NCBI RefSeq assembly: GCF_037975245.1
Contig: NC_092566.1
Span: forward strand, 1,178,001 to 1,242,000
DNA length: 64,000 bases
Direction: 5' to 3'
DNA from: Apostichopus japonicus
Lineage: Eukaryota; Echinodermata; Holothuroidea; Aspidochirotida; Stichopodidae
Under the pieces are notes generated by a model that was not told the DNA's origin, searched no databases, and saw nothing but the letters and a program-made list of their open reading frames with translations. Positions 3,385 to 58,300 of this stretch are shown here, piece after piece. Every line of letters begins with the position of its first letter. Position 1 is the first letter of the stretch. A program made the translations under genes and the position numbers.

Positions 3385-9132
<5,748 letters not shown>

Positions 9133-13050: not shown

Positions 13051-13090
13051 TGTAACAACAATAATCATGATAATCATATCAGTTTAACCA

Positions 13091-13356: not shown

Positions 13357-13769
13357 AGAAAGACGATATAAAACAAAATGACTTCTTATTGTTCATGGCT
13401 GGAGGTTATGTAAATTTGGAAGACAGTTCTGTTCACTGGATTATTATACGTAGCTGTATATATAACGATGATTCATATTAGCTTTCACTGCTTTAAATTA
13501 TTGCTGACTAATTGCTAGATCTGATAATAGAGAGATGAATAACAATCCATTTATCAACAGAGGTGAATACATCCTTATTAGGATGTCATCGGCCATTACC
13601 TATATAATTATTTGTTTTAATGACACGAGTGCAAGATTATATGGATAAAGCCTTAATTCTGTTCTCCAAAGGAGGTATACTCCATTATTGGAGTTCGTAA
13701 GAAACATACTCGGCTCGCATATGCAAATATCGGTTGTTATTGATACCAATGATACATATAATCAATGAT

Positions 13770-13908
13770 GTCTATAGAAAGCCTAACGTGCAATAATTCG
13801 AAAAACTAATTTATTGCCAATAAAGTCGGTTTTTTCCGAGTTTATCGTCGAGTTTATCGTCGATAAAACTGAGTTTTCGAATTATTACACATAAGGCTTG
13901 CCATAGAC
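13770..13908. repeat. Fold-back inverted repeat, 139 bp
   Basis: Left arm 13770-13807 (GTCTATAGAAAGCCTAACGT, then AATAATTCGAAAAA) pairs with right arm 13871-13908 with few mismatches. The centre contains direct copies of GAGTTTATCGTC. Probably a small fold-back MITE; no target duplication is clear. Confidence 0.65.
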
Positions 13909-14455
13909 GTATAGGCTGTTCAACAACAACATATACACCATCTTACAAAGACCAGCCTAATGAAACCCAGTCATGTTCATGTTCTGCTCAATAGCGGGAG
14001 GCCGGGGGCTGGGTTGGGGGGGGGGGGGAAGGGAGCCATCCATTGATCGTCCGTTCACCTTGTGGAGAGAATGAGCTGCAATTTATGACCCTTTGTATTG
14101 TTTGGACAGAACTTTGAGACATACTTCGGCCATCCCTTTCCCCTTCCCCTCCTCACTAATTCAAGTCCTGTTGTGAAAATATATCATTCCTTTAAGCTTT
14201 CATCTTAAATTAAAGGTAGTCTGTATATAGGACCCAAATTATAGCATGCTATAATTGCTAGACGTTTCAAAACGTACTTTCCTGGAGGTCTTTACTCTCC
14301 AAATTGTTCTTCGGACATTCTAAATGAACACAGAAGATGTTTGAAAGACCCAGGGAAGTAAATTTCCTCCATGGGTAATAACAAAAATAGTTTAAAGTGT
14401 TGACCAAAAGTGACCATATTAAAAATCTGGCGTATTTGGGGCCTATACAGCATAC

Positions 14456-24209: not shown

Positions 24210-24572
24210 CAGGGGCGGATCCAGGGGGGGGGGCCCGGGGGGCCCGGGCCCCCCCTTTTTGAAAATCCTGATTTTTTTTTGATTTTTTTTTTACCGCGCT
24301 CGAGGGAAAGTGCCCCATGCGTGATCAGTGGCGTAGCTACGGGGGGCCTGAAATTGCAGACATGAGATCCATATTTTCAGGCTAGGTACATGCTGCTTAG
24401 AATACTCGGGAAGTGCCGTTTCCGGCCATCTGGGGGGTTTGTAAAGCCAAAAATTTTCTTGTACGCTCCGCGCCAACCAATGATGGCGCTCCGCTTAGAT
24501 ATTCTTACGTTCAGGCGCGGCTGGACCAGTCAGACCCCCCCCCCCCTGTCACAAATCCTGCATCCGCCCCTG
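24210..24572. mobile_element. Two hAT-like termini, CAGGGGCGGATCC type, not a matched pair
   Basis: A left end CAGGGGCGGATCCAGG at 24210 and an opposite end GCATCCGCCCCTG at 24572 have different 8-bp flanks (TGTGGCTG, ATATGTCA). They overlap the element starting at 24326. Best read as remains of two insertions with deletions. Confidence 0.55.
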
Positions 24573-25081: not shown

Positions 25082-25975
25082 TTGCTAGATATATGAAGAA
25101 GAAATTTACATACCAATACATGTTATCGGTCATCGATTGGCACAAAAAGCCAGATTCTGATGACAGCTGCCTCAAGAAACCCAATAAATGGCCTAATAAG
25201 CACCGAGCCATCAATGTGGACCATTACCGAAACATCGATGCGTGTTAGTCTTCCACCCCCTTCCTCTAATGCTATTTAAGTCCACATGTGGGCATATCCT
25301 GCAAATCTACCGGTAGCCCACAGGGGTTTGAGTTGGGAGAAAGGCCTTGACAGCTTGAAACGACAAATGATGCCAACTTCCCTCAAGTTAAAAGTCTGGC
25401 TGAGTTGGCAAGGCCAGTCAGCATGAAAGAGAAAAAACTTTTTTTGCATTTCTGTCACCAAAGTTGCACATCTTTTTGGTTGCTATTTTGCCTCACAGGT
25501 GCCATCTCCTGCGATCTGGGGGGTGCTGAAATCTCAAATTTTCTCTGTACGCTCCGCGCCAACCAAGGTGGCGCTCCGCTTAGATAGTAAACTCCGCCCC
25601 CCACAAGAAAGAACAGCCCCCCATGGCCCCCCCCCCCACTCAAAAAATCCTAGCTACGCCACTGTGCGTGAAATTTTTTGTAAAATAAATTTGCAAAAAG
25701 AGTACACCATCATTCTGATAAAGTGAAGGTGAGAGGGGCACTCTGACTGCATCAATAGTCTCCATCTGGAAGGGGGCATCCAAGATGAAATGGCCTGGAG
25801 TAGCCTGGTAAAAAGTAATTTGCATCACCACCTACTCCCCAAAGACGTAAATCCCAGCTCATTGCTCGAAATTGCCAAATTAATATATGCCCGGCAAACC
25901 ATGAATACATGATTTATTGGAAATAAATTTTACTCCAAACTTTCACGAAAAGTAGCACCAGATTGCACCGAGGAC

Positions 25976-26179: not shown

Positions 26180-26480
26180 CCATTCAGCATTTTTTTAAAT
26201 GATATCGCTAAGTAATTTCAAAATAGAAAGTGCTTAGAGGCAACATACAAGGCCTGGGAAGTGTCATTTCCAGCGATCTGGGAGACATTTTCGGCCAAAA
26301 TTTGCTTGTACGCTTCGCGCTAACAAATGGTCCTGGGTAGTGCCATTTCCAGCGATCTGGGAGGCATTTTCGGCCAAAATTTTCTTGTACGCTTTCGCGC
26401 CAACCTATGGTGGCGCTACGCTTAGATAATTTGCCTACAGGCTTCGCCCCTCCCTTGGCAAATTCCTCGCTACGCGCCTG
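26180..26480 (+). mobile_element. hAT-like element with a duplicated core
   Basis: Matches the 8620-8912 element from its AT-rich left part to CTACGCGCCTG at 26480. The unit from CCTGGGAAGTGTCATTTCCA to AATGGT (26253-26330) is repeated head to tail at 26331-26408, an internal tandem duplication of about 78 bp. The left terminus is degraded. Confidence 0.7.
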
Positions 26481-26835: not shown

Positions 26836-27214
26836 CAGTGGCGGAGCGTCCATACGGTCGGGGTGGATGCCCCCCCCCCCTGACGGACTCAAATGGACTG
26901 CTGGCGCCTTTTTCAGCTCTTTACCACTTTTTACTTATTCTAGATTATTAACTTTTTTATTGCGCTCTCATCTACTTATTGACATTTCTCACATTTTGTT
27001 GGTGTAATTTGGCGATGACACCTTATTCTTCGTTTATCTGCAAATTAGCCAGGCCCGGAAAGGGTCATTTCCGGCGATCTAGGGAGTATCTCTATTCAAA
27101 AATTTTCTGTACGCTACGCGCCAACCAGTGGTGGCGCTCCGCTTAGATAGTGTCGAAAGCGCTCCTACAGACCATTCTCGCCACTCCTGACCAATACTCC
27201 TAGATCCGCCACTG
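26836..27214 (+). mobile_element. hAT-like element, 379 bp, inside an older element
   Basis: Ends CAGTGGCGGAGCGTCC and CTAGATCCGCCACTG, flanked by an exact 8-bp duplication CCGCCGCG (26828-26835 and 27215-27222). The bases after the right copy, CCTCCTACGCCTATG, are the end of the CATAGGCGTAGG family, so this copy jumped into an older one. Confidence 0.82.
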
Positions 27215-27759: not shown

Positions 27760-27903
27760 AAGCCCGAGAAGTGCCGTTTCCGGTGATCTGGGGGGGTTTC
27801 AAAACAAGAAATTTTCTTGTACGCTGCGCGCCAACCGATGGTGGCGCTCCGCTTAGATAGTAATTCGCGCCCCCCGGGTTTGAAAATCCTGGATACGCGC
27901 CTG
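27760..27903 (+). mobile_element. 3' half of a hAT-like element with core motif
   Basis: Core GCGCCAACCGATGGTGGCGC at about 27828-27847 and terminus CCTGGATACGCGCCTG at 27903. The left end was not found. Confidence 0.6.
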
Positions 27904-29844: not shown

Positions 29845-30862
29845 CATAGGCGTACGGGACCATTTCGGTTGGGGGCAGAAACTTTTGTGCCCGAAATTTC
29901 CCGTGACACTATCTAAGCGGAGCGCCACCATCGGTTGGCGCGTAGCGTTCAATAATTTTTTTGGCAAAATATGCCTCTCAGATTGCCGCGGAAATGGCAC
30001 TTCTGAGGCCTTGCAAGTTGCATCTAAACATTCTTTATTTTATAATCTCACGTTTAGAAATTTACACTTCCCCAAAAATTTGGTAAATTAGAAGAAGAAA
30101 AAATGGTAACATCACTTTGACGGGGAAAACTAGGACAGTATATTTTTTAACTGCTATTTAGTTACGGTATTTATTATTTTAACACAGTACTCAGCTACCC
30201 CCAGAACAACATACATTGTTCAACGACACGTAGGCGGGAAAATGTCGCTGTGTCGGGTGAGACTGCAATTTGTCTCACAAAAAAAGTATAAAAAATAACA
30301 AAGAATATGATAAACCTGTACTTTTAGGCTTGTAGGCACTCCCCCCCCCCCCCCCACCATCCAAGAAAAAGAAAATGTTTCTTATATACACTCATGTCTG
30401 GGATGTCCAGGTATACAGTTGACTAGTAAGAAAAAATGTTTACTGCGGTTTTTTTCACTTCAGAGACTGCTAATCTCCATGCATGCTTGTCACCACGATT
30501 GTGCTGAGCGGCGTTCCCTGTTAATAATTTTGGGCGATAGTGCAAAAAGCGTGGTAGCCCAGATGAGCTGCGCTTACGGTGGTGTTACACGGAAATATTC
30601 GGGCATCGTGATGCTAAATAAAGAAAATCATTAGGCCTATATAAATATTAATGTCACAAAACAAATAACACAGAACGCTCTCCACGGAATTTTCGGGCAA
30701 AAATATGAAAAAGATTCGGGCAAGCTACTACATATTTATATATATATTTTTATCTCCTCTTAGGCTGCCCGAATTTTTCAGGACTTTTGCCCGAATTTCT
30801 TGTCCTCTGGAAATTGGGGGGAGGGGAAGTCTGCCCCCTGCCCCCCGCCTCGTACGCCTATG
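29845..30862. mobile_element. hAT-like element, 1018 bp (CATAGGCGTACG ends)
   Basis: Ends CATAGGCGTACGGG and CTCGTACGCCTATG. Flanks CTACAAAG (29837-29844) and CGACAAAG (30863-30870) agree in 7 of 8 positions. An inverted copy of the family core lies at 29908-30010. The short frames inside show no transposase. Confidence 0.72.
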
Positions 30863-33900: not shown

Positions 33901-33950
33901 AATTAACTAATCTTTTGTATCTAACTAGAAGTAGATATCTGGTTTTAATA

Positions 33951-35165
33951 ATGATGCCTTCCAAACAGAAACAAGACCAAACTATCAGGAAGAGGAGCAC
34001 CCAAAGACATACCATGATCGATAAGAAAGTATTCAGCAAAGAGAAATCTTATAAATGTAAGCTCTGTGAAGAGACGTTTCCCATCATTGCAAGTGCAAGA
34101 TCTCACGAAAAGACTCATGGTGAGTCAAAGCCTTTTGGCTGCGAGACTTGCGGTAAAGCTTTCATCAAGCAGTATTTACTAAATGCTCATCAAAAGATCC
34201 ACACCGGGGTTAGAAATCATAAGTGCCGGTTTTGTGAAAGTGCATTCAGGAAGAGAAGCCATCTTGTGAATCATGAAAGGACACACACTGGTGAACGACC
34301 GTACACTTGTCGCCACTGCGAAAAGTCTTTCAGTCGCAAATCACTCGCCGAAGATCACGAAAGGGTCCACTTGGGTGAAAAGTCGTTCCAGTGTTTTGAG
34401 TGCGGCAAAGCGTTTTATCAGAAGTGTCGTCTAAAGCAACATTCCAGGACTCATTTGAACCAGAATGTCTTCATATGCCAATTTTGCGGCAAAGGGCTCT
34501 TCACCACACATCTTCTTCAGAGTCACGAGAGGATTCATACGGGAGAAAAACCATTCAAGTGCAAGTTCTGCCACAAATCGTTTTCTAACCGGGGTAATGT
34601 CATGAACCATGAGCGGATACATACTGGAGAGAAGCCTTATAAATGTACTCACTGTGACAAAGGTTTTGATAGAAGGTCCAATTTGAAAATTCACGAACGG
34701 AGGCACACTGGGGAAATGATTTTTCAGTGTAGGTACTGCGAGAAAGGTTTTGTTGCAAAAGGTCACATAAAACAACATGAGAGAACCCACACTGGAGAAA
34801 AGCCATTTCAGTGTCCGGACTGCGACAAAGCATTCACCATTAAAATTTCACTGCAGAATCACATGAGAAACCACACAGGTGAAAAACCTTTCAAATGTCA
34901 ACATTGCGGAAAAACGTTTCACACCAGAGGAAGTGCAAGAAGGCACGAGAAGGGAAGTGCTTGCAAGAAACCCACTAAATGTCGAGTATGTGAAACAGTC
35001 TGCGAAGGCAAAAGTGCTCTATCATGGCACAAAATGACACACAAAGGGGAACAACCGTTACAATGTCAACATTGTGGCAAATTGTTTGTAAGAGAAGGTC
35101 ATTTACAAAATCATGTGAAGAAGCAACATCCAGCAAAGACAAAAAATGCAAATCAAGAAGACTGA
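33951..35165 (+). CDS. C2H2 zinc-finger protein with 13 fingers
   Basis: Intact 404-codon frame in one exon, probably a nuclear DNA-binding protein. The ATGATG at 33951 is taken as start because the frame upstream has no other ATG; an acceptor-like TAACTAG lies at 33921-33927, so a 5' untranslated exon is likely. A basic 33-residue N-terminus is followed by 13 fingers every 28 residues (34-61 up to 370-404), most joined by HTGEKP-type linkers. Fingers 1-10 are canonical, except that finger 6 has Leu for the core Phe. Finger 11 ends His-x5-Cys in place of His-His, finger 12 has Cys at the core Phe position, and finger 13 has His-x4-His. No KRAB, BTB, SCAN or ZAD domain is visible. Target sites and orthology are unknown. 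Confidence 0.9.
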   Translation: MMPSKQKQDQTIRKRSTQRHTMIDKKVFSKEKSYKCKLCEETFPIIASARSHEKTHGESKPFGCETCGKAFIKQYLLNAHQKIHTGVRNHKCRFCESAFRKRSHLVNHERTHTGERPYTCRHCEKSFSRKSLAEDHERVHLGEKSFQCFECGKAFYQKCRLKQHSRTHLNQNVFICQFCGKGLFTTHLLQSHERIHTGEKPFKCKFCHKSFSNRGNVMNHERIHTGEKPYKCTHCDKGFDRRSNLKIHERRHTGEMIFQCRYCEKGFVAKGHIKQHERTHTGEKPFQCPDCDKAFTIKISLQNHMRNHTGEKPFKCQHCGKTFHTRGSARRHEKGSACKKPTKCRVCETVCEGKSALSWHKMTHKGEQPLQCQHCGKLFVREGHLQNHVKKQHPAKTKNANQED

Positions 35166-38626: not shown

Positions 38627-39270
38627 CAAGGGCGGCGGAACCGGGGGGGCACGTGCCCCCCCCCCCCACTTTTCCTCAGGTTAAAAATGTGCCCTTTTTC
38701 TACATAAAAATTGAGGTGTCTCAAGTTAGCAAGAGGCCAGGGAACCAGAATGAACACTCGGGAAGGGCCGTTTCCGGCCATCTGAGGGGTCTGTAAAACC
38801 CAAAATTTTCTTGTACGCTCCGCGCCAACCGATGGTGGCGCTCCGCTCAGATAGTCGTGCATACAACTTTGCAAATCCTGGCTACGCCCCTGACTTTTAA
38901 TGAATTTCTGTGGGCCAAACTCAAAGCTATTTCGAATGGAAAATTTTTTGTTAAGATATTAACAAAAAAAAACTCTAATTCGGAAGATTCCTACATTAGC
39001 AACTAGCATGATTTCACCTCATTTTGTCTCAAAAGAAAGCTTGTTCCTTGTTTCCCAATTTGCACATTGGATATTGCAGTGCTAGTATGCATATTTTCGT
39101 GGGGGCGGGGGCGTTGATGGAGTGATGTGTATACGCAAATAAGATAATACAATAAGAGTCATATAGGGTACTAAATATAAGGCTGCATCAGTCCAATCGA
39201 ATTTCTGCAAAGTGCCCTTTGATGTCGGTGCCCCCCCCCCCCCAGATTAAAAGTGCTTCCGCCGCCCTTG
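38627..39270 (+). mobile_element. hAT-like element, 644 bp
   Basis: Ends CAAGGGCGGCGGAACC and TTCCGCCGCCCTTG (14 bases exact inverse), flanked by an exact duplication CGAAGAAT (38619-38626 and 39271-39278). A family core (38760-38855) and an inner terminus CCTGGCTACGCCCCTG (38892) show it absorbed part of another copy. Confidence 0.85.
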
Positions 39271-40720: not shown

Positions 40721-40758
40721 TCCTTGCAATCTCACAATGGCAAGGCCGTTAGCTGGTA

Positions 40759-41904
40759 GCGAGATTTTTTTTCCCAGCGCGGTAAAGGCCGTCATTTGCA
40801 TACCTCGCTTCTCATTGGCTGCAGTCTTGCACTGTTGATGCTGGGAAGTTCTTGCTTACGCTATGCGTGTGTGTATGTACATGAACATACACGTGCAAGC
40901 AGTGGATCGTGATTCGCATACACGTACTGTATGAACTGGCCACTGTGTTGAGACAACGTTGTTAAAAAATTTGTTAAAATGTTTTTTATTTGCTTTTGCG
41001 CGGACTTGTTTGTGTACATTTACATCCATAAGTTCGTAAAACAATACTGCGACCATGGACTGTGAGTGTACACGTCTCATATAGATGACTGTCCTTCTTT
41101 GAAGGTAATGATTACTTAGGTTGATGATCCAAAACTGAAAAGCCAATATATCGAATTAGTTAGTTTTGACGAGGGTGAAGCTTCGAAGTGATGGTGGTGG
41201 AACTTGCTGTACATGGTACTGCGATGGGCAATGTACGCAGATAAGTACCAGGCGTTTGATTGCTTCAAAACTGTTTAAAAACATTGGACAGCTTGACCGT
41301 TTCTGGTTGACTATTAACTTGGGATGCTTTTAATCTTTAAACTGATAGACTCATCTTAATTCTGAGCATAGACATTGATTTGAATTTCAAATTCATGACC
41401 CTTTGAAACGGTTTATTATGACCCTTTGGCACGGTTTTCAGATAATATACTACGAAATCTAGGCCTAGTATTTAGTCATGCATGTTAGTAGTACCACTGC
41501 CATTGTGGATTATAGTTATTGAACACAGAAATTGTCTTACGTTTATATTATATGGTGCTTTTTTTGTATCATCTTCAAACTGTTCCGGTTTGATTTAACT
41601 TCTTTCAATTTACTGAGCAACAGAGTTGTGCGATACATAACCACAGACCCTCTACACCCGTGGCATAAGACACCGACAAATATATTAACTCTACTCAAAC
41701 GCGTACCATTGTACATTCTGCTGCTAGACTGTTTTCTTTTTTGAGTGTAGCAAAGTGGCCTTGTGAAATGTGGTATGTGATGAACGATTCAGTGCATCAG
41801 CTGCTAGTTGATATTGCAATGAATCTTATGTATACGGACCGCAGCCAATGAGAAGCGAGGTATGCAAATGATGGCCTTTACCGCGCTGGGAAAAAAAATC
41901 TCGC
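40759..41904. mobile_element. Mutator-like DNA transposon remnant, 1146 bp
   Basis: Inverted ends about 71 bp long (40759-40829 and 41834-41904) starting GCGAGATTTTTTTTCCCAGC differ at two positions. Both sides carry the exact 9-bp duplication TAGCTGGTA (40750-40758 and 41905-41913). Long inverted ends with 9-bp duplications are typical of Mutator-like elements; Merlin (8-9 bp) is the alternative. No transposase frame is seen. Confidence 0.8.
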
Positions 41905-41913
41905 TAGCTGGTA

Positions 41914-44900
41914 AGGTAAGTAACCCTGTCAAGTCGTTGAAACTGACTTGAAGCAAGTCTTTTATCATGCTCGATGGTCCATTTTTGCAACTACTCATGC
42001 AGTAATAACATTAGACTTGACCAAGTTCGTTATATTTTCAACGGATGCTCAGTGGAAAAAAGTTTTCGCTTGACATTCAGTGTTCTATTGACATTAAAGG
42101 TGATTAATAACTGTTAACTTGTGGGTGCCACCAACAGCTAGAAACAGAAAACGTTAGTGTTTAGGTAAACAACTTGCTCAAAACCAAATGATTCTTCCGA
42201 AGAATTACATGCAAGGTCACATGACCAACGAACTTTCCCTGGTCACGCCCCCTGTTCATGATATACATAGGTTGTTAGTATTAGGCTGCATGCATAGTCG
42301 TTCATTGATTTGTACGGATTCTACGTATGTAGGCTTCATTTGCATGAGTACTTCACGGATTTACGTACGTGTGTACCATTACGTTCCTGTGTGTACAATA
42401 TACGCTAAGTAAATACTACTACTCGTATCGATTTTGCCGTCTGCTAGTGCTACTGGTTTAACGGCATAACCGTCTGCAAAGCACAACTTGGATTCTTTAT
42501 TTATCGCTAAATTGCCAAGTTGGACATCGGAATAATATATTGCAGCTATTAATTTTCTCATCAGAGGTAAACAATATGGATTTTTTTTAAAGTAAAGAGT
42601 AACATTCGAAAGTTCATTTAGAATCGCGATTGCTGACAGCAAAACATTGCCGCAGGCGTAGTATATTGTAAAACGTGAAGCCTAACGTAAGCTAATGTTG
42701 TCCCTTAGACTAGAGTTAGACTAACACGTTAGAATTTTGGTATCTGTATGTTTACTAGCAATGCTTTGCAATATTCCTAACCAGCAGTGAGCACATATGC
42801 TTCGTAGTATATAGTGGCTACTTCATGATTTGACATTTATCCGCTTCTAAAGCGAGGCGAATATTACCGTGGTTAATTGCAATGCCTGTACTGTTGCTAC
42901 CACTTACTGTTGAATCGCTAAAAACAAGTGCTAATGTTAGCCATAATACTATAGTGTCGGTTAATATTACTAATCTATAGCCTAGGCCTAACTACTTCAA
43001 GGCTAGGCATACTACAAGGTAGGGGCATCACCTATTGTACGGTGTACCTAAGTTAGGTGCCAAGGCTACAGTCGCATGATGAATAAACATTGCTAAACTG
43101 TAGCTGGGACACTGCCAATTTTAATTTTGTTCTGTGGTTGATTGTGAATTCAACATAGGCCTATGCTAGTTCCTGATTTTCATCACATTTGTGTATTTGC
43201 TACAAAACACAGATTGAACTTCTGCTGGCAGGGAACTTGTACTTGCAAAATGCAGAGTGTAAGGAAACAAATGAGATCAACAACATGAGTTCAAGTAGAA
43301 TTCTTGCAAAATGAGTAGTTTATGAGCACAAGGCTCTAAGCAAGTGCATAAGTATGTAAGTTTGCATAAGATCCTTATCCTTTACTACTGTTCAAAATGC
43401 CTCGAGTACAGGTACAAATCCACAAGGGTGACTAGCTCTAGCCTATAGCTAGTCTGTGGTAACAATATGAGTAAGAACTCACTACAACCCTGGTCCGGAT
43501 CTAGTGCCATTCCTCCATAGGTACATACCGCCATAGCTTTCCGCTATAGGTTTAGATCCTTTCATTTTGGCAATGGATTTTACCCTGGTGTACAGGAATG
43601 TATCGGTGAAACTTTCTTTCAATCGAGTGGAAGGATAGGTTCACCGTCTTCAATGTGACAGATCGCTCACTAGACTGAATTGTAGTTTAGACAAGATTGG
43701 GGAATTGATACATGTGCAGTCTTTAATGTACAGGTTGATTGAATAGTTTTAATTGTAAGTTCGTAGGAATTGATACACTGTCTTCAAATATATAATAGTT
43801 GGTTGAATAAATCGATTTAAATTAGGCTGGTTGTTAATTAAAAAAGACAGATTCTGTTTGTCGATTTAAATCACAGATTTTGTGGATTTTGCGGGGCCTA
43901 GGTAAAGTGAAGCAAAGCAATATACAGTGCATATGCAACCACAATAATGTGCTCTTTCCCCCATGCAAAAAGTGCTTTACCTCGATGGCGGTAACATGGC
44001 AGAATGGCACTTTTTTCTATGGCGGAAAGAGCACATTTTCTATGACGGAAAGTACCGATATCGGAATGACACGGCCCCCACCTGGTCCAGCCTATAACAA
44101 AACCCTCTGAATAAAGCAAAACATTTTGTGGTAAATTGATTGTTGCAATTTAAACTTATGTTTTTAAGCTTAAATATTTCACGTTGTGAATCCAAACATC
44201 TAATGATATCAAATAAGGTCTTGTATAGCCAAAAAAATATGTTGCATTCCTTGGAACTGAAGATTTCTTAAGTGTTTGGAAAAGAAACCACATTAGCATA
44301 CTTCTCAGGGTTTTTTCTCCAACCCATTGGCCAAATTTGCAGATAGAAAAGTGGTCACAGTTAATCATGCTCTGTAACACAGATGGAGCGATTTGGTTTT
44401 TTGAAAACAACTTAGTTTTGATAGACCTTTTCCTTATCGGTACCCCTTTATTGTAGCATACTGCTGGCAGTTTGGCACTCTGGAAATGTCAATGGCAATG
44501 ATGGAATTATATGATTGTTCCCCATTTGTGACTGTTGAAAAGGAAAAAGACATGTGCAGTTGACTGTTAAAGGATATGCAGGCCTAGCCTTGTAATTTTG
44601 ACCAAGCCATGTAACAATTGCATATCGATACTCTTCAGTTGAACTAACTCCTAAGATATTGTATGAAGTTACAATAACTTTATTAGCGAATTAGTAACTG
44701 ATTAATCCTATATAAGTAATTTTTTTGCATATTTTATAAACCTTTGAAGTCTATTGGTTTATTTAATAATTTTCAACAGTTTTTATTGTAGTTTCTACTA
44801 ATATACCACCTCTAGATGGCAACCAATGTAAATTAGTGGCACATGATATCACAGAATAATTTATTGCTCCAATCTTTTGTAGCTGTTTTGAAGTGTCTAA

Positions 44901-45491: not shown

Positions 45492-47344
45492 GTAAATTGT
45501 TTCCAGCACAACAAAAGGTGGTGGAAGGCTTTGCTATTCCTGAAGTTTTGCATGACTGCTATGTACATAACTATATACTGTATATTACTGTGGGAAATAA
45601 CTTCCAAACACAACACTAGCTATGAATCATCTTGCATTGAAATGTTTTAAGTTGATTTGCTCCCTGTGCTTTACCTGTGCTCCAGTTTACCCCTGGGAGC
45701 CTGGAGGTTGTTGACATAATCTGGCTTTGAAAGGGGGTGACAATTTCCTTAATAACACCACCACCAAACAAGACAGGTCACATGTAGCAAGGAGGTTTGC
45801 AAAGCTCTTGAAGTGTAATTGTTCTGATGAAAGCCAAATGCTCTTTCAGACTTGGATCACAGTATAGCTCTGTAAGGACAATAGATTTTATTGAAAATAC
45901 TGTACCCGAATATTTTAAAGTGCTATAATAGTACAGTATATTTCGAATATTTGAGTTTATAACTTTTCATATGTTGCCCTGCATTTGAAAGTTGCCCTTG
46001 CCTACTAATCCCTGGTATAAAAAGACCTCTTTCCTTTTCAAATGTGGATTTGAATGCAACCTGAAAGCATATTTAAGTTTAATCTGGTTTGCGATTTCTT
46101 GGTTTATCTGTGCTGAAATTGTTCCTTGCCATAAACAGCCAGAGATGGCACATGTATTTATGTGTCTTTCATATCAATTGGTATCTTGGCAGACTTTCTT
46201 TCATTCAGGAAAATTGGATAAATTTAGATTGTGTGGCTTTAGTCACAATTTTTACAATATTTTGGGAACTGTATGAAACAGGAAAAGACACAATTGTGAC
46301 ATCAGTATTTAGAAATATTGATTGTAGAAGAGGACCCTTGTAGGACTTTAAATGTAAACATAATCATATATAGACCACATGTATGCATGGGACATTTGCT
46401 TCTCCTTCATTATTCTCTCCCAACTTGGAAGGCACTGGCCAGAATTTATGTCCGGGGATATTGTAAAATAGTTCTAGGAGAGGTCATTTCAAAGTGAACA
46501 CTGTTTCCAAGTAAGGAGAAAGATGTGGTTAACCACTATGTAACCAAAGAACTCCCTGTTTTAAACTGATAATAAACTCTCAAGAGAATTGTTCCATGAT
46601 TCTGAGACAATATAAATCAAGATGACCCCCTGATCCTATGCTTAGGGATAAGCAGGGTACACAATACAGTATTAGTGAAAGGTTCCACATGATGACAGGT
46701 GTGTGTACATGGTGAATTGTCACAGACAGTTCTACAAATCCACTAAATAACTCAATCACTGGTAACTTTCTTTCAAGGAATTAAGGAGATGTACTGCTTA
46801 CATATATTAAACAGTAAGCAGTTAACCTTGTACATTTTGCAAACGACTGTCTGATATTCAAAGATTAACAAAAATCATAGCTGGTCACAATTTTAAGGAA
46901 GAACTTTATGGTATATTATTTAATCTGTTGAACACATGCAAAAAAATGAGTATGATAGTAAAACCAATGGGATAGATACAGGACTCTGGAACTATAATAA
47001 GAGTTTGAAGAAAATTCAGTTCTGTTTGGTAAAAATGACTGATATATTGGGTTGTGTGGTTGTAGTAGATGCATATAATATATATGTGTGATGTAAGTAC
47101 CAGGTTTAGTGAATTGCAATCAATCCTTTGCTTGTTACTGTATGAACTAAAACTTCTATTTCAGTAAGTGAGTGATGCAACCATGGGACCAGCATGTTTC
47201 ATCACTTGCAGATTGGGTTGTAATAGGTCGTCAAAAGAAAATTTGAAAATATTCCATATATTGAAAGTTTGGCAGAGATGCTGTAAGGGCTGTGTATGTG
47301 ACTATCACAACATATCACCACTTACTGTGCAGTATATTTCAGTC

Positions 47345-47512
47345 AGAAAAGTAGAAATATCCGCAACAGTTTACAAGCAATTGAGAAAGGCATTAAAAAT
47401 CCCAAATGCTGTGACTTGTTGGACTTTGCTAGGGTTCGCAGAAAAGCATTTTGCAATGTTTGTGTGAAAGAATTCAAGAAAAGAAAAAAGGAGTCGAAAA
47501 CTAAACAAGGAA
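47345..47512 (+). CDS. Candidate internal exon, unidentified
   Basis: Acceptor TATATTTCAG and donor GTAAGTG enclose a frame reading SLQAIEKGIKNPKCCDLLDF and RVRRKAFCNVCVKEFKKRKK. The CxxC pair with basic residues may bind metal. A different frame of the same DNA is open from 47168 to 47467, so the choice is uncertain. Confidence 0.28.
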
Positions 47513-48489
47513 GTAAGTGAAAACGTCTTCATAATCGTGTGAAAACAGATCGTGGTTCAAAAATCTTTCCAAGAATAAATATTTGATGGTATCACTACAT
47601 ATTGCTAAGGGGGAAAAAAAAACAAGAAACCCTTGTCATCCCACTATCCTCCTAAAAGCCAGCTACACGCTTGTACAAACACCTGGACAAATTGCCAGGC
47701 ACCAAAAGTTTTAAAACAACACTCCCAAAATGGTGGCACACTTCACCTAGTCTGCATGCACTCTCCTGTTGGATGTCTGTAAAGTATGTGGGGACATAAG
47801 TTTACAAGACCTGTTGCCTGTTAGCCTTTACACCAGAGGGGGGGGGGTGACTCTTTATCAACCTTGGGGTTCTACATTGTTTAGAACCAACCAATTTCCT
47901 CTTCAGATGGATGTGATCAATTCCTGTCTGCTATTTTCAGTCCTATACCAGTTTGTAGACTGTGTCAACAATAATGAACTTTTGAACATTGTACTCTAGA
48001 AGGATCAAGGCCTTCCCGTGTTTCAGTTAGAATAATTTAAATACAATCGTTATTGTCATCCTGTCTTGTGATACCTACGTAGTAGTGTTGATAATTTAGC
48101 CAAAGTGATGGATTCGTTTGACTTCTGTTTCACCCCTTGAGCTTGATTCTAAATTTACAAAAATCATGGTTGATTTACGGGTAATGATGGTTAGTGGTAA
48201 AGTTAAAACAGATCAGTTTTCAATTGTTTCGAACCTGTAGGTCCTCCCACCCTGTTACATGTCAAGGCTTTAAAAGGTACCCCAAGTGTCAATGTTTGTT
48301 ATTTACAGTTGACACAAATGGCTTTTTTTTTTGTGAGTATATATAGATAGTGTAGTTTTGAAAATGACTTTCATCAAGTGCAGAATGGATAAATGAGTCA
48401 GCTACTGTATTTGTGTTACATGTACATGCATACAGTACATGTATAGATGGAAACTATTGCATCAAATAACCTTCACAATACACTGTTAA

Positions 48490-50116
48490 AGACCAACTAT
48501 GGAGACTTTTCGATGAACATAAAATCCCACCATTTTTCATGTATGTAATCCTTAACTGATTCCAATTACATTGCTGTAATTAACTTTACCAATTTCGGAC
48601 GTTAAATAAGTGAAAAATGGGACGAAAAGTCAGCTTCTATTTCAGACATTCCTGAAACATTCCTAAGACATCAGGTGACCATGTGACGTCAACGTTTGTA
48701 TACCTCACTCACAACTATACTTTTAGTGTGTAAAGTCGTATACTTGAGCTGCCAAAAACATCAACGATATTACTCCTTTTTCCTCAAAATGTCACAATTC
48801 TGTGTTGTTGGAGGTTGCAGTTATACCTCATCCAACAAAAGCATCAGCTTTTTTAGATCTCCGAGTAAAAGAACCGACGTAAAACGCCGCAGACTTTGGA
48901 TCAATTTTTTGAGATCCACGCGGAAAGATTTTTCAGCACCCGGAGTATCTCATGCCCATGAGTCCACATGCATGACCCTGCTTCTGTGTATGCTGCAAAT
49001 GTCTCATTCTGTGAAAATTATATACTGTCGATAGCTGTGTCGGACCATGGTCGGACATAGCTAATGTGAAATTGACCGTAAACACGCCCTGGACGTCCTT
49101 ACATGTAACATTATATCACGCAATTGACAGTAATATATTTACTGTAAGAGATGACCGTATATATATATACCGTGCCAAGGGTATAGCATTGTTAGTACAT
49201 GTACGGTAGTTAGTTACAACTCTCGCCGGCGTTGGCTCACAGCATGTGTAAAAAGCCATGTTAGGATTTATCTATTTCATTTGTTGTATTCCAGTATCGT
49301 GAGTTCGTGATACATGTGTAATATTGTCCGTTCTGTTTATTCCGACATCTGCATGTTCCAAGGAGTTGAATAAAAACGGTAGTATGTAGCGATCGGACGT
49401 TTTATTTCGTTAGTGACTGTCTTGTGATTGTGGGATGTTAGTACTGGTCAAGGCCTGTTTCAACTAGACCTAACTCTATGGAATTACACAGACTCACGGT
49501 AGTTTTTCGCCCAGGATTGAACAAGAAACGTGGATTAGGATATTCACTGCTAAATTTGTTTATTGACAAGATACTTTTTCTGTGTTTGTATACTTTTGGA
49601 TATTAAAACGAGTAAGTACTATGTAAGTATATTGTACCGTACGGACCTATTGACGCTACGCTATGTAAAAGATGCCTCCATTTGAGTGAAAATTTTGCTA
49701 ATAAAATAAGCAATTTAACTAAAATTTCTGCTTATAATTGTCTTAAAACTTGTTGTTAACCTTCATGTGTTCTTGTTTTAAGCTAACAGCTTTTCAAACG
49801 CTCGAAATTGGAAGTCAAAAACAGTACAATTGTTCGCTATCTGTGTACAAACAGTGCCTATATCAGCGTTTGATTTTCGCGGTATACAAACTTTGACGTC
49901 ACACGGTGACCAGAGGCTCCTTTGGGTCAATCTCTGTTTTCAGACATTCCAGAGGTTCATGTCACGTGACTACCGAAAATGTCCATTTTCGTGGTCGTTT
50001 TGGATGGGTTATAGTAGGTTTTCGAAGATTATTTTTTACACATGTTGATTATGGGTATGTAAACTCCTAAATTAATGGAAAATCTCAACAAAAAAAATTG
50101 CCTCCATATTTGGTCT
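48490..50116 (+). mobile_element. TTAA-flanked transposon remnant with THAP domain (Kolobok-like), 1627 bp
   Basis: Ends AGACCAACTATGGAG (left) and the inverse of AGACCAAATATGGAG (right), directly flanked by TTAA (48486-48489 and 50117-50120). A second inverted pair of about 31 bp, GTGTGACGTCAAAGTTTGTA in the right copy, lies at about 48674-48704 and 49888-49918. Inside is a THAP-domain frame. Kolobok elements combine TTAA targets with THAP domains; P elements have THAP but 8-bp duplications, which I do not find here. Confidence 0.6.
48789..49034 (+). pseudogene. THAP zinc-finger domain fragment of a transposase
   Basis: From ATG 48789 the frame reads MSQFCVVGGCSYTSSNKSIS, then RRRLWINFLRSTRKDFSAP. 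This is the first half of a THAP domain: CxxxxC pair (Cys5, Cys10) and the invariant Trp37. The second CxxH pair is missing; the frame drifts after SAPG and stops at 49034. Either an intron begins at GTATCT there or the gene is broken. No catalytic domain follows. Confidence 0.65.
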
Positions 50117-52160
50117 TTAAAGGGTAGTCTGATATGCTGCTGCAGTGTGCATGTATACTCACATACAGTTTTTACTGTACAACACGTTTTTGGAATAATT
50201 CCTATTTTAATAACATAAAATTATATCTGTTTACTCAATAAATTGCCACTGATTAGACTCTTATAGATAGATTCTTAAATTTGAGAACACTGATACATGT
50301 ATACTCTCTGTGCTTTGAAAGTGCATCACAAAATTCACCAGTTTCATTTTTGACATGACTAGTATTGATCTGTGTGGTGTGCTGGTATCGTTTACCAGTA
50401 CTTGAAACTGGATGCTCACTAACTAACCAATGAGAAGACATAAAGTGACTACTCTTTTATAATATATGCAAGTTCATTGATCTGTCCGGTAATTATCAGC
50501 ACTTCCAGGTCAAAAATTGATCAGCGATAGTCAAATTTACTGATAAAAATGGGTTTATTGTACATTATTTGCGAGAGTGTTTTGAGAGTGGTACATAATT
50601 TATCCATACGTAACAGTTGCCAGGGTTGAGTGTGTGGCAGGTAGATACAGTATTATACTGTAAATGCCAGGTTCTGAGTTGGAAATGAAATTAAAAAAAT
50701 TGTTTTCAAAATGCTATCCACATTTTCATGAAACTGGAATTTAATCCATTTGTGAGATTGCAAGGGAGGAAACTAACATACGAATTGCTCATACAAATGT
50801 TTCTCACTTCAGTTCTAAGTTCCCCCGTGTTGTGAAATGTCATTGAAGTTTTACGATTTATTTTTCGCAGACATTGCTAATACTCTTCCATATATGTACA
50901 TTATACTCAAATATTTCTCAATATTTTCAGCAAGTTTTTCCAGCATTCTGTACCGTTTGATATAACCTGCTTACAAACTACAAAGAAACGCCAGATTTTT
51001 TAATACTTAACAATAAGGGAACATTTCAGACAGCTCAGTTCGCACAGAATGAATTTGCTTTGTTTTCTTGACTGGTTGAACCGTTCAGGTGCGTTAGTAG
51101 TAACCGTGTCTTTGGGAGCATCCAACTGTGTGAGTCACATATCCACAGGGTATAAAATAACACATGACTGTAGAAATTTGCCTCCTGTTTTGTGTGAGGG
51201 AGACTTTTGTCATAATTAAGAGGTAAACGTATCACACTTATGAATCAGTCGTTGATTAATTCCTAATCTATTTAAAAGAGAATCAAAAGGTTTGTGATTG
51301 TGTTTTCAGATAATTTTGTTTTCAGATAATCAGTGGGATTAAGAGGCGGTAGAAAATTGACCCCATCACATGATTAGTACGTATAATACTTGCAAGTTTC
51401 TTCTTCTTTTTCGTTTTTTTTTTTTCCGGTGGGAAAGGGAGACAACTGTACACAGTGTACATACAGAACTTGATACTTAACGGTTGATACAGAACTTGAT
51501 ACTAATCAGTGAAGGAATACACCAGATTCTGAGGGTCATGTTGCCAGATGTGTTGTGTAAAGTTCATCTAATGGAATGCAGCTAGTAGCTTGATTACTTT
51601 ATAGCTTCATTGACATTTGATAATGAAGTTGTCCAGACATTGCCATACAACAGTTGGAGCAGTATGTTTTACATTTAGCGACAGTCAATTAGCATATGTT
51701 GTACACAGCATGGGCTTGTACTACAGGTCCCCATCAGAATAATATGTGAATTATAAGCATTGATAAACGCATTGCACTTACTGTAGCTAATAGGCTCACT
51801 TTAACAGGCCTATTGTAGGCTATTGTAGCCTTATTGTTAAGGTCATTGCTGTACTGAAGTAAAACACAAATGAACAAGAAAAACAAGAAAAGAAAAATTT
51901 TATTTGGGAAGTACTTTTATAACTCTTATTTAAGTCTGTGAGGAAAGTGTGTATTAAATCAACCTTTTGATAGAACTTGCTGATTTTGTGGAAAGCAATT
52001 TGTTAGTTAAGGCCTTCTGTACTATCCCTTACTTAGTGAATGCTGTATTCCTTTAAAAGTTTGTCTATATCACTGTATTGAATGACATGTTCAGTTTCAA
52101 ATTTACTTCTCATATGTTTGTACAAGATTAATACAAAAATAACATTACAGTTAGTAAGGT
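50117..52160. other. Gene-poor stretch
   Basis: AT-rich, no supported exon or repeat on either strand. Confidence 0.4.
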
Positions 52161-52166
52161 TAACAT

Positions 52167-52310
52167 ATGAAGGAAACTAGAAAAACAGCGAGGCTGTTAT
52201 CTCAGCTAGTGACCAATGCAATGGCAAGATCTCCAGGACGAATCACAATTTCTTCAGTAAGAGCGAGGGCACCCTGCTCCAAAAGTCTTAGGAGTCTGCC
52301 AAGGCTATAG
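52167..52310 (+). CDS. Small ORF, 47 codons, doubtful
   Basis: ATG to TAG, beginning MKETRKTARLLSQLVTNAMA. Arg/Ser-rich; a GTAAGA donor lies inside after ISS (52256). Could be a first exon or chance. Confidence 0.18.
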   Translation: MKETRKTARLLSQLVTNAMARSPGRITISSVRARAPCSKSLRSLPRL

Positions 52311-53344
52311 ACAGTGTGTAATGTGTTCATGTTAATACCGATGTACCCTATACTGTATGTACAGTATGTCTTGAATGACAATAGCGAGCTACTATGCTGT
52401 TCAATCTTGTGCTGATATGCTTAAATTAATTTAAAATGGATTTAAAATGAAAAAAAAAAGAGTATTAATTAAGCACCCAACAATTAATTCACAGCTCAAC
52501 GGACAGCTGCTGATCGTGTGGTTTATAAACTCGGAATGCAGTAGTGAAGCGTAAATCGCTCGACAAGGTTAACAATTGCATAGACTTTTGTGAATCCATG
52601 GAACTGCAAGCAAAACTAGAACTTTTTAAAATTACGTACCGGTACTGTGTGTGCTGTATAGTGTACATGTGTCAGTATACCTGCATTAATATGATACAAC
52701 ATATAAATTATGTATGTAATTCAGGAAATACTGTACCTCGTTTTCTCCTCATATTTTCGAAATGCTTTTACAAAAGTTGAAAGCAAAACTTGATGAGGGG
52801 GATTTTCAAACAGGATATAGAGACCACCTCGCTATGGAAAGATCATCGATGAAACGGTAACATGTGAAGAACTTTCTATTTTGGGTTCTGATTGGGTTTA
52901 TCATTAAACTAGTGCCGTATATGCAATGAGGCATCACATGGTTTTAACAGTACTGCACTGTCTGCACATCCATGCAGTTAAATTTCCACTTAACATATCA
53001 TTATTGTATGCACTTCATTGCAGAAAATGATTACAAACAAAAACTTCCACAAATAATTGCAATTCTTAAATAATAATATTGTTACAATACCACATGTAAC
53101 ACTGTATATTGATAATTTTTTGCAATATCATGTTGTTTTTTGTATTTTTTACTTTCCCAAGGTCACTTTTAAAGTGCTTTGCCAAGTTTGTTTCTGTGCT
53201 TTGTGTGTTAGATGTAAAGCAATATACAAACTGTGTTACAACAATAAAGGTGGTTGACAAAGTATCACCTGCTTTGAAGGTGTTAGTTTTCTCAGAGATT
53301 TTGTCACAGCACATATATTGTCAGCTGTTTCATGGTGGCCTTCA

Positions 53345-53650
53345 CATTGTGATATATAGCACTCTGAAAGATTAGCTATATAATGTGTATTTATTAACCA
53401 GTGTGTTGTGGGCAGGGGGGGGGGTGTGGAGAGGGGGTTAGGGAGGAGGGAGTGATAGGAAGGAGGATAGTGGACGGTCTGATAATTTTGCTCATCATGA
53501 TAGCACACTGAAAATGTTAACTGTATGATACATAATTATTCACCAAGCTTGGTGAGGGGGAGATGGAGATAGAGATAGGGGTGAGGGGGGGACGAGATAG
53601 GAGGGAGCGGGAGGACTGGAGGTGATAGTCTAATAATTTTGCTCATCATT
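53345..53650 (+). repeat. Diverged direct repeat, two units of about 155 bp, each with a G-rich purine tract
   Basis: Unit 1 (53345-53500) and unit 2 (53501-53650) share CACTCTGAAA/CACACTGAAA near the start. Both have a GGGAGG-rich purine block and end with TAATTTTGCTCATCAT. The purine blocks differ in sequence. Confidence 0.65.
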
Positions 53651-54066
53651 GTCTTTGTAGGTCCTGATCTCTCCAGGCTCTCACCTGCAACCCCTATCCC
53701 CTGCTCCTACAAAACAAGAATATTAATTACAAACAAGCAAATAAATCGTGCAAGAGAAAAAAAGCCATTAAGAATTTTTTTAGATAGTTTGAATGGAAAT
53801 GTATAGTTTAATACAGAATGATTTGCTTTACCAGCAAATGTTACTTGCTGTTTCTTTAAAAATAAAAAATTGTGGTTCTCTTTATTCTCCTCATCTTTTT
53901 TTCAGTTGAAAGTATTTTTGTCACTGCGATAAAATTTGGAAATAAATTGTGTCCTGATATTTTGATCCATAAAATCGGTTGTTATTGTCAAGAAAAGCAG
54001 GCGGGGGGGGGGGGGGGGACTTTGTCGTCATGTACAGTAGAAGCTGAAAACAACTGAAAATCTTAC

Positions 54067-54142
54067 TTCTCTCCCGCTGTCAGGAGACCGTAAAATTTGT
54101 TTGATAAACTCATCTTGTTTTGCACGAATGTCTTTTGCCAGA
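54067..54142 (-). CDS. Candidate internal exon, unidentified
   Basis: Acceptor CATTTTATTTTAG, donor GTAAGA. The 25 complete codons read LAKDIRAKQDEFIKQILRSP then DSGRE, helical and charged. Starts in phase 2, ends in phase 0. Splice sites are good; the function is unknown. Confidence 0.4.
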
Positions 54143-56874
54143 CTAAAATAAAATGATGGGTTCATAATATATTCATCACAAGCTAATGGAATAACAAACA
54201 CAGTTGCCATGGATTCAAATCAACCAATTTGAAAAACAAAAGTTGCTGAAATTACTTTTTATGCCCCAGTGGTTTATTAAGCACGGTCCATAATCGTCTA
54301 TGTTGACAAGGTAATTTTCCTTTGAATACAAATGTTGCTCTAGGTTTCGTTAGGTTTTACAGTTAAACGACTTTGATGGCAGAATGGACTGAATCCTTGC
54401 AAGCTACTGTAACAACTTGTTTAATACAGCGTGTGTGAACTTTTGAGAACTTCATTTAAATAGATGATACTTGTAAACAGTTCAGTCTATTTACAATTGA
54501 TAGGATGTGAAGTAGTATAACAGTAGTTTGTATTAATTATTATTATTAATAAGTGAAGTTTTTATATCAGTTTTAATAGATGATGAGGGATGTCAAGTGC
54601 TGTTTAACTGATACAGTCGTCATAGTGATATAAGTTTAAATAAAACATCTTGCATGTATGTGGTAAAAGTTGTTACCTAACCTACCCCGTACCAAGTGTT
54701 ACGAAAACAAGATCGTTATTTATAATCAAACTAAACCAAAGGTCCAAGAATTTCCCACTAAGTAAAGGTTAATAATTGCAAGTGATTGACAAACTTTATA
54801 TGATGATCAACATTTTGATTATTAGATCATCATGATGCCTTGATAATTATCAAATTACTATTAATCCCATGTAACAAGCAAATTGGATAATTATAAACTT
54901 TTTTCCCCTTACAAAACAAAAAGAAAAGCAAAAACGATGCTATTTGTGAAAAAAAAGGTAGAAAATGAGGAAATACTGTATTCTCATTGAATGGTGTGTA
55001 CACATGTTCTGTACTTTACTTATATGTATAAAACAGCACAGAAACTGAACATATTGGTAAATGAACTAAAATTTATGTTAATCATTCTAAATAAAACAGA
55101 TGTCACCCATCGTAATTAAAATATCACACTTGCCTAATAAAATATGTAAATTTATGCTGTTAATTTTGGGGAAATTGTATCTATGACACACATCTGAGAA
55201 AGGGCTGAGATGGCAGCAATGTTTTTTCTTTTGTCTTTTTGAATACAATAGATATCTGAGGATACTGTCGCAAATTAATTAGTGTTGTCTTATAAGAATG
55301 TCTGCCTTGGGTTGAATATATACAGTATGTATGCAATAAACTTGGCTGTGTTCTTGAAGGCTGTCTACTGTACATTCTGTATGCTGCACCATCGGTCATT
55401 TTTTCTTTCACTTTGCAAACTTCTACAGAAATATTCTGATTTTTTGTAAAAGTTAGTGATAAAGTGTTATTATAACACTGTACCACTGTTCCCTTACAAT
55501 TGTCAACAAGTAACTGTCTCTAGGGGACATTACAGTAGGTAGAAGAGAGAGAGAAAAAAAAAGGAAAATAGTCAAGCTTGTGCTTGAAAAGTTTATATTA
55601 TTGTTTGCCTTCGTTCATATAAATATTTTTTATGACCTTAGTTCTGCATGATAATAACAAAAGAGCCTTGTTATTGATATAGAATACAGCAGTCATCTTT
55701 TGTACTGTATGTTCACTCAAGCTAGCAGCTGATATGCATGCAAGGCTGCCACAAATCTGTTTTGTTGCTTCTTGATTTGACACCAGGTTTTGAATCAAAT
55801 ACCATTAGCAGCAGCTTCTCTCCCCTATGAAAACAGTGAGTTTTACCCATTGTGAACGGCAAAAGATAATTTGGTTTTGAACGTACAGTAAGGGAATCAT
55901 TTATCCACAAAATCATCGCAAAATGCTATACCAAATAGGCAAATGGCTACACAATGGAACGTAATTATGCATGGCAGTTTTTGCACACTGATAGCATACT
56001 ACTGTCAGTATTTTATGAGAAATATAATTCATCATAAAACCGAAAAATGCTACACAAAATATAAACACTAAATTATTCCCTGTCATTAGCTGTACATATT
56101 ATTTCATGTATACATGCCAATTGGTATAAACTTTGTTAACTGAAAGTAACAACTTAATTCCTTTTGAAAGTAAGAAGTTAACCCCCCCCCCTTTTTCACC
56201 CATAATCCTTACTCCCTCCTGACCTTCTCCCAGAAAACAAACAAAAAAGAAGGCGAAAGACCTGTCAAGACATAGAATCAAATACAAATTTATATCGTAG
56301 GGCAATGTTACAACTGATATTTTGTTCAGACTCTTGTTGAGTTAAAATTAACCATTACAACTTATTTTGGAATCTAATTCTGGCCAGGTATTAAACAGTG
56401 AGTGCTTTGGCCGATCTCTTTGTATTGACCTAAAGAAATCAGTTTCACAATTATGGCAGGCTTACAGATCTTTCAAAATTGATGATTCATTATATATTTT
56501 TTGGCAACGTATTAAATTTACGTTGTTCCTCGCTTACCTGTCTCCCCACGACTTTAGCACTCTTGCTCTATCATGTCTAGAACGAACTGGTAAAATTTAA
56601 CACTTTTGGGCCCACTATGTCCGGACCTCCTTTATCAACCATCTTTTGATACCTTGCCAAATTTTGGCAGGTGATATCAATTACTTTGTTAATTTGGGAA
56701 TAAGTTTTATTTTAATTCATTGTACAATTTTGTTGTTGTGTTGTTGATAGTTCTCTCTAGATGTACATCCACATGTACATTGTTGTGATATGTTTTTTGT
56801 GCATTACAAGTATATACTGAATGTAACTCGCTTGCTGACAACATTGTTTTAATACCCAGTTTGAACCCACTCAC
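54143..56874. other. Likely intronic or intergenic DNA
   Basis: No supported exon. A minus frame around 55620-55770 is open but its donor is poor. A poly-C tract lies at 56181-56190. Confidence 0.35.
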
Positions 56875-57124
56875 CATGGTTGTCCTGACATGATATTCTC
56901 CCCTACTAAAGTGTATATACCATCTTTGATGTGCAGAACCTCCCCAAACATTACCAATTATTACCAGGCCTGTCATTTCACAGTTGGGGTTAACAGATAC
57001 AGTGAGTAGTGATGTATTATATGGTGTAACAACCTGGATTACCTTGTACATTCTGCTGGTTAGGGCAAGGTCAAGTCTTCGCCCCAGGGGGATCCATTCC
57101 TCAATGTCAGGTATCCCTGTATTC
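56875..57124 (-). CDS. Candidate internal exon with strong splice sites, unidentified protein
   Basis: Acceptor TTTTCCTTCTCCCCAG before 57124 and donor ATG|GTGAGT after 56875 enclose 83 complete open codons. They include NTGIPDIEEWIPLGRRLDLA, TVSVNPNCEMTGLVIIGNVW and HQRWYIHFSRGEYHVRTTM. This is the most protein-like frame in the right half of the window. I recognise no family; alternating hydrophobic and polar residues suggest a beta-rich, perhaps extracellular, domain. Confidence 0.5.
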
Positions 57125-57247
57125 CTGGGGAGAAGGAAAACTCAGAAAACTAAAAATATATTTCCCTGGTCTGCCACTACTGCCCAGACTTAAAACAAGA
57201 AAAAAAAGAAGTATTTTAATGTATGGTAAGAAAGAGTTTCTTCTGAC

Positions 57248-57303
57248 ATGGAATGCCAAATAGATGTTTTAGAAACATGTTTATTGTCCATTTGGCATTC
57301 CAT
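57248..57303. repeat. Perfect 14-bp stem hairpin
   Basis: ATGGAATGCCAAAT (57248-57261) is the exact inverse of 57290-57303; the 28-base loop holds an inner ATGTTT/AAACAT stem. Too short a continuous stem for a typical microRNA precursor. Confidence 0.7.
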
Positions 57304-58300
57304 ACTTGCATTATGTAAAACAGTACTATAGTTAGGCTATATTCTTGATCCCTTTTGTTACAATGTACCTATCATCCTATCAACTAATGCACAGTTTCCT
57401 GGCCCGGAGAGCATTTCTATGAATCAGATTATGATGTACTGTAGTGTAAAAATGGATGTCAAATACATTTAATGCTTTGGCATGTTTTACTGAACCTATG
57501 TTTCAAAAAAATAGAGTAGTAACATTATTAGCATTTTTCCTAACTTTCTGCCCTACATTTTTAATACAATGCCATGAGTCCTATACTTCTCACTGTATTC
57601 TTGAAAATGAATACATGTACTCTTAGAAGACACATTCTAAACAATATTTGAAATATTTGTTTGCATTTGAGGAAGATTCTGCTATGTTAAAAATATCCTC
57701 TTATTTAAATATCTTTTATTTATACCTACACAGGTGTTTTAATAATAATAATAATAAATGAGAATTATATAGATCTTTGTAGTAGATCTTTGTAGTAGAT
57801 CAGCAGTTAACAGTTTTTTTTCTCTCTCTTTAATATGTATTAAATGATATAAAGTTCCATGCATTTTCATCTCATGCATGTTTGTATGGATGTCATTGAA
57901 GCAAATAGCAATTGAGTTGATACTGCTGACATTACACAGGGCCATTTTGCATTGTATAAATTGCTTCTGCTCCAGCATTTTTCTTACAGCTACCGTATGT
58001 TGTAAGCCAAAAGTCCATCGTGTTTAATGCACACAATTAAGAGTCTGAATGGTGGTTGACGCACCAGTATTTTATCAGCCAATTAGTAATTAACTAAGTT
58101 TATTAACCATGTGTGGGTGACATAATACATGCTGGTAGTGCATGGTGGTGGATTCACATCATTGTGTTCCTTCAAGCTTGTGGTTTTAACATGTCAGAGG
58201 ATATAATGGGCATTCAAGACACTAACTTGTAAAATAGAGTTTGGAATACAGTAAGTTATTGTATACGTTCAAAACAATTTAACTGGTAAAGTAGTACACT

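Follow-up and report, generated by a model that had tools for sequence, protein, structure and literature searches.

Kolobok transposons have been described as duplicating TTAA on insertion (PMC9587614, PMC6004289), and their 5'-RR/YY-3' ends set them apart from piggyBac, which duplicates the same four bases (PMC9587614). In Xenopus, AG ends were found in all ten full-length Kolobok copies; the usual motifs of the transposase are DDE, THAP and an H2CH finger, and its THAP domain shows C2CH, P/W/F and an AVPTIF box (PMC6004289). The word THAP has 0 occurrences in the accessible text of PMC9587614, and the accessible parts of PMC9587614 and PMC6004289 make no mention of a distinct inner inverted pair, 'subterminal' having 0 occurrences in the latter. 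Nor did we find a report of an inner inverted pair in Kolobok in the literature searched, a body of text from which subscription journals are mostly missing. A literature search with six end sequences returned papers that were judged unrelated by title and the start of the abstract.

Such a second pair is known from P elements. The distance between terminal and subterminal inverted repeats is about 100 bp in the Drosophila P element and 400 bp in that of zebrafish, and internally deleted P copies are common (PMC7776569). Galileo has a first binding site for its THAP domain about 70 bp from the end and another deeper in the element (PMC3688188). Since the motif selected by the zebrafish THAP domain is absent from Pdre2 (PMC10983969), the role of the subterminal repeat as a secondary site is uncertain even in P. 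KolobokP has long terminal direct repeats of about 450 or about 660 bp with short inverted ends of their own, and a His-Me finger nuclease (PMC9587614).

In the window, that is, the whole stretch of 64,000 nucleotides that was analysed, two TTAA sites bracket an element at 48486-50120, with 1,627 bp between the TTAA copies. We read it as a single non-autonomous, internally deleted cut-and-paste DNA transposon of Kolobok type in an animal-like nuclear genome, and give this reading a probability of about 0.6. This weight, like that of the nested reading treated below, is a judgement and not a computation. The putative target-site duplication consists of the left TTAA (48486-48489) and the right TTAA (50117-50120), identified from the sequence and from pair statistics. 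Inverted-pair analysis and the same statistics place the left terminal inverted repeat, AGACCAACTATGGAG, at 48490-48504 on the plus strand and the right one, AGACCAAATATGGAG, at 50102-50116 on the minus strand. When TTAA|AGACCAACTATGGAG (48486-48504) is compared with the minus-strand TTAA|AGACCAAATATGGAG (50102-50120), 14 of the 15 bases adjoining TTAA match. The window has 476 TTAA sites, and no other pair of them at a distance of 150-6000 bp has at least 14 of 15 adjoining bases matching; dinucleotide shuffling of the whole window, repeated 60 times, produced 1 comparable pair (at least 14/15) in total. The original prediction of 15-bp ends adjoining TTAA on both sides was thus borne out. 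The element begins with AG and ends with CT, and its termini are therefore of the 5'-RR/YY-3' type. At the outer ends no 8-bp duplication was found, TTAA alone being common to both sides and the letters beyond it being different. TTAA being palindromic, a 2-bp duplication of TA would fit the same letters.

A second inverted pair was located by inverted-pair analysis and shuffles at 48671-48704 (plus strand, including TGACGTCA) and 49881-49914 (minus strand). It had been predicted at about 31 bp and measures 34 nt per arm, with 30/34 positions matching; its arms are placed nearly symmetrically, at a distance of 181 bp from one end of the element and 202 bp from the other. With a separation of at least 500 bp required, no 34-mer inverted pair in 200 shuffles of the element had more than 25 matches, against the 30 observed, while in a looser test without the separation rule 31 matches were reached in 1 of 40 shuffles of a 2,001-bp region. 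The spacers between outer and inner pairs (166 and 187 bp compared) are unlike each other, as had been predicted: their local score in inverted orientation was 21, against a 95% mark of 30 in 500 shuffles. A diverged terminal repeat of about 220 bp was also considered, as its global score of 155 exceeded the shuffle maximum of 118.5, yet it was rejected because the stretches between the two pairs bear no likeness.

Two further features were seen in the subterminal stretches. Folding of the left one indicates a hairpin at 48504-48632 (outer limits set by eye), with arms GACTTTTCG...CGAAAAGTC and CCATTTTTCA...TGAAAAATGG, a z value of -3.36 and 0/200 shuffles folding as well, whereas the right stretch is unremarkable, 39/200 shuffles folding at least as well. 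Both spacers also contain a direct repeat, TTTCAGACATTCC[T/A]GA, with plus-strand copies TTTCAGACATTCCTGA at 48640-48655 and TTTCAGACATTCCAGA at 49938-49953. It matches at 15/16 positions, where none of 60 shuffles exceeded 13, but it is considered a weak feature because its gapped local score of 29 merely equals the 95% mark of 500 shuffles (maximum 35).

The inner pair holds a detail that goes beyond the original description. On each side, the core of the inner repeat is bordered by the 7-mer GGTGACC, in the same (direct) orientation at 48674-48680 and at 49905-49911; this 7-mer could be the target-site duplication of a nested element. The inverted core inside the two copies reads [A/G]TGTGACGTCAA[C/A]GTTTGTATACC, and 3 of the 4 mismatches of the 34-nt pair fall in the outer 11-nt part outside this core. 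As to TGACGTCA, it occurs 5 times in the window (3418, 11709, 29368, 48684 and 49894), compared with 0.57 expected and 0/100 shuffles with 5; the contexts of the three copies outside the element look unrelated by eye.

The predicted first half of a THAP domain is present inside the element. It starts from an ATG and spans 52 codons, MSQFCVVGGCSYTSSNKSISFFRSPSKRTDVKRRRLWINFLRSTRKDFSAPG, at 48789-48944 on the plus strand, within a stop-to-stop frame at 48687-49034, as established by frame translation, Pfam and phmmer. When this frame was scanned alone, the Pfam THAP model matched residues 39-83 with 25.4 bits (cut-off 23.9), covering profile positions 1-45 of 87; the same match scored 22.1 bits, and fell below the cut-off, once the frame was embedded in an X-laced translation of 5 kb (1,666 residues). 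By phmmer, the half domain aligns to the human THAP2 structure 2d8r with an E value of 0.031. NCBIfam matches of the frame were dismissed as far below cut-off (NarU, E 0.0018, 17.4 bits versus 836; vinyl phenol reductase, E 0.31). An open frame at 47183-47464, considered as a candidate second THAP relic, had no Pfam match.

From 48945 to 49880, frames and Pfam disclosed no recognised coding content; a 32-bp near-palindrome lies there at 49032-49063. The longest of the other open frames in the element is 88 aa, so that no intact DDE catalytic domain can be encoded. A Pfam scan of all six frames of 46500-51501 returned the THAP half and no catalytic, transposase or nuclease match, although a Kolobok model may be absent from Pfam and decayed pieces of the catalytic domain or of the H2CH finger could thus escape such a scan. 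No further THAP or transposase part was obtained in the forward frames of 51400-58001. The second C-x2-H pair of THAP was not found in the forward frames of the element from 48901 onwards, and the three forward frames of 48901-56000 hold a single C-x2-H[FYW], at 50712, outside the element. Among the 11 GTs of 48851-49040, the best splice donor reached the 74th percentile of the GTs in the window, as scored with an approximate matrix written from recall. Because there is no good donor and the scans show no second THAP half, an internal deletion is likelier than a missed intron as the cause of the missing half. As judged from its frames, the element is probably a deletion derivative, since it has no other Pfam domain, no other frame above 88 aa and no second THAP C-x2-H.

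CpG content was compared by Fisher tests of CpG against TpG+CpA. The observed/expected ratio was 0.70 and 0.67 in the outer parts of the element and 1.1 in its inner part, while the 2-kb flanks gave 0.23 and 0.42. Both the inner part (p 1.7e-10) and the outer parts (p 0.029) differed from the flanks, and the difference between outer and inner part was not significant (p 0.22). For the whole window the ratio was 0.64, and the inner value lies at about the 90th-95th percentile of 400-bp windows, which is high but not unique. This step in CpG speaks for an insertion whose edges lie near the reported ends; by itself it does not separate one element from two.

Further copies were sought in the window and in sequence collections. 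The rest of the window contained none among the matches listed, the best short match being 14 bases. Chance figures for matches of the two repeat patterns in the window were set aside as circular, these patterns having been derived from the element itself. An exact scan of IMG/VR with the terminal 15-mer gave a raw count of 98 stretches, 0/98 of which had the full 19-mer including TTAA, and the inner 22-mer had 0 matches in IMG/VR and 0 in prokaryote genomes. The terminal 19-mer matched once in prokaryote genomes, in a Shapirobacteria MAG (L099), and this match was taken as chance because the 8,000 bases searched there contained no second end, even when 3 mismatches were tolerated. At the protein level, the THAP half was looked for in IMG/VR, where 63 stretches fitted the peptide pattern and none encodes a relative, and blastn of the element against phages gave no match. 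As these collections are viral, phage and prokaryotic, the absence of copies from them says almost nothing.

Compared with Kolobok, including the T2-MITE of Xenopus, the element shares the TTAA duplication, the AG...CT ends and, as a first half only (profile 1-45 of 87), the THAP domain of the transposase; it differs in the lack of a catalytic part, which is expected of a non-autonomous copy, and in having a distinct inner inverted pair. With P elements (Drosophila P, zebrafish Pdre2) it has in common THAP and a terminal plus a separate subterminal inverted pair, but P duplicates 8 bp, while here the outer ends adjoin TTAA and lack an initial CA. The earlier view that separated double inverted repeats are unusual is not supported, as P elements have the same layout (PMC7776569). 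Galileo, of the P superfamily, resembles the element in its THAP domain and, if the inner pair represents ends, in a 7-bp palindromic duplication; it has long repetitive terminal repeats and a GTANTAC target, in contrast to the 24-bp core and GGTGACC observed here. KolobokP is similar in its RR/YY ends and its two levels of terminal repeats, which in this element are inverted and short. A KolobokP structure was discarded, the longest direct repeat in 48300-50300 being 16 nt and a nuclease match being absent.

The GGTGACC copies raise the question of whether there are two elements rather than one: a deleted P/Galileo-like element, comprising 1,224 bp from 48681 to 49904 and including the THAP half and inverted arms of 24 bp (22/24 matching), would have inserted in GGTGACC with a 7-bp duplication inside an unrelated outer TTAA element, a MITE of about 400 bp. 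The original prediction had named 8-bp duplications as evidence against itself; none were seen, but the 7-bp direct repeat leaves room for a nested P/Galileo-like element. GGTGACC is repeated exactly just outside the inverted core, and an exact 7-mer so placed arose in 0.36% of 40,000 simulations with random arms (8-mer 1.6%, 6-mer 9.3%). The rejoined site TCA[GGTGACC]AGA is palindromic at 5/6 pairs by eye, and Galileo duplications are mostly 7-bp palindromes (GTATTAC, GTANTAC) within a 15-bp palindromic motif (PMC4168063). Moreover, THAP is the DNA-binding domain of the P superfamily (PMC7776569), and the higher CpG ratio of the inner part (1.1 versus 0.67-0.70) goes in the direction fitting nesting, with p 0.22. 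When GGTNACC was instead treated as a palindromic module whose centre base is free, an exact direct match came up in 13% of 40,000 simulations. The inner insertion would have fallen about 11 bp or less from the midpoint of the outer element, and the combination of THAP, TTAA and AG/CT would be a coincidence. Within the inner part no further subterminal pair was detected, the best 12-mer matching at 10/12 while 28/30 shuffles gave 10 or 11, and of a P-type transposase (THAP, GTP-binding insertion, RNase H fold) the inner part holds the half THAP only. The ends of the Drosophila P element start with CA. The inner ends considered here start with [A/G]TGTGACG and not with the CA of zebrafish P, for which an insertion flanked by AGGTGAAT has been described (PMC10983969). 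Altogether we consider nesting unlikely; if right, it would be a plain case of one decayed transposon within another.

Two other explanations carry still less weight. A non-autonomous element of another superfamily, either piggyBac or a mariner-type element with a TTAA or TA duplication, is improbable. The TA within TTAA would suit mariner, but a duplication of TA alone would require T and A to stand next to it by chance on each side, and THAP is not known as a feature of piggyBac or mariner. A TTAA duplication is also made by piggyBac, but RR/YY ends part Kolobok from it and those of this element are AG/CT (PMC9587614). It is more improbable again that a host gene contributed the THAP part, as an exon or a processed relic, and that this lies by chance between two unrelated inverted repeats. 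THAP domains are known in animal host genes (PMC7776569), and the frame found here opens with ATG and encodes half a domain that can still be recognised. A host THAP gene spliced beyond the element, which the original prediction had listed as evidence that would speak against it, was nevertheless unsupported, as none of the 11 GTs scored above the 74th percentile and the second half was absent from the forward frames to 58 kb; the CpG shift, in addition, lies near both edges of the element and not around the THAP exon.

For the single Kolobok-type transposon, the TTAA duplication, the AG/CT ends and the half THAP speak in favour of the predicted Kolobok relationship, while the protein evidence stops there, with no catalytic domain. 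As no catalytic domain, second THAP half or other copy was found, the assignment rests on the ends and the half domain. With half a THAP and no intact catalytic part, we speak of a Kolobok-type element and not of a proven member of Kolobok. Against certainty stands that THAP also occurs in P elements, and that the exact GGTGACC is better explained by nesting unless GGTNACC is a palindromic module.

In a longer ancestor, a transposase gene would have begun with the THAP zinc finger some 300 bp from the left end. An internal deletion would then have spared the ends of the element and about the first 52 codons of the gene, whereas the catalytic part and the second half of THAP would have been lost. 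A full copy would provide, in trans, a transposase that binds to the 15-bp ends where they join TTAA, makes its cuts at the AG/CT termini and reinserts the element at TTAA, which would thereby be duplicated. Because of P and Galileo, inverted subterminal repeats in a THAP element are readily read as secondary transposase-binding sites, and we infer this P-like role for the inner pair, in which GGTNACC stands beside TGACGTCA about 180-200 bp from the ends. The left inner repeat, ending 84 bp upstream of the THAP ATG, may also be part of the promoter of the gene. By analogy with P, we tentatively propose, at somewhat less than even odds, a Kolobok-type transposon with bipartite ends, in which TTAA terminal repeats would be combined with a distant, inverted and palindrome-rich putative anchoring site for THAP. 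If so, the terminal-plus-subterminal layout would be common to THAP transposons beyond the P superfamily. Should copies confirm it, the inner pair would provide a candidate site for THAP binding to a Kolobok-type element, and it would allow one to test whether the arrangement of two sites per end, as in P elements, predates the P superfamily.

Elsewhere in the window, two inverted pairs were noted. A perfect 50-bp pair at 2295-2868 (CGCGCGTACCATGTATGGAGGG...), with 474 bp between its arms, is probably a young palindromic MITE; one forward frame had no Pfam match and the immediate flanks showed no clear duplication. At 40749-41914, a 78-bp pair, 94% complementary, with 1,010 bp between its arms and no Pfam match in three forward frames, is a probable non-autonomous DNA transposon. 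On the minus strand, hemopexin and matrixin matches at 3385-3918 and 6274-6630 probably represent exons of a matrix-metalloproteinase-like gene, and suggest that the window is animal nuclear DNA. A 420-aa open frame at 33903-35165 has about 12 C2H2 zinc fingers. A tandem array with 111-bp spacing at 11914-13184 can be read on the minus strand as a repetitive open frame of 262 aa, and a strong skew of G over C (0.415 in 12001-14000) is seen at this array. Finally, a dispersed repeat family (AGGCATGGGAAGTGCCATTTCCGGCGATCTGGG...) has nine plus-strand members, 61-94% alike to the reference, at 3317-3380, 8754-8817, 24402-24465, 25488-25551, 26250-26313, 26329-26392, 27051-27114, 27760-27823 and 38754-38817, with related inverted arms near 29902-30041.
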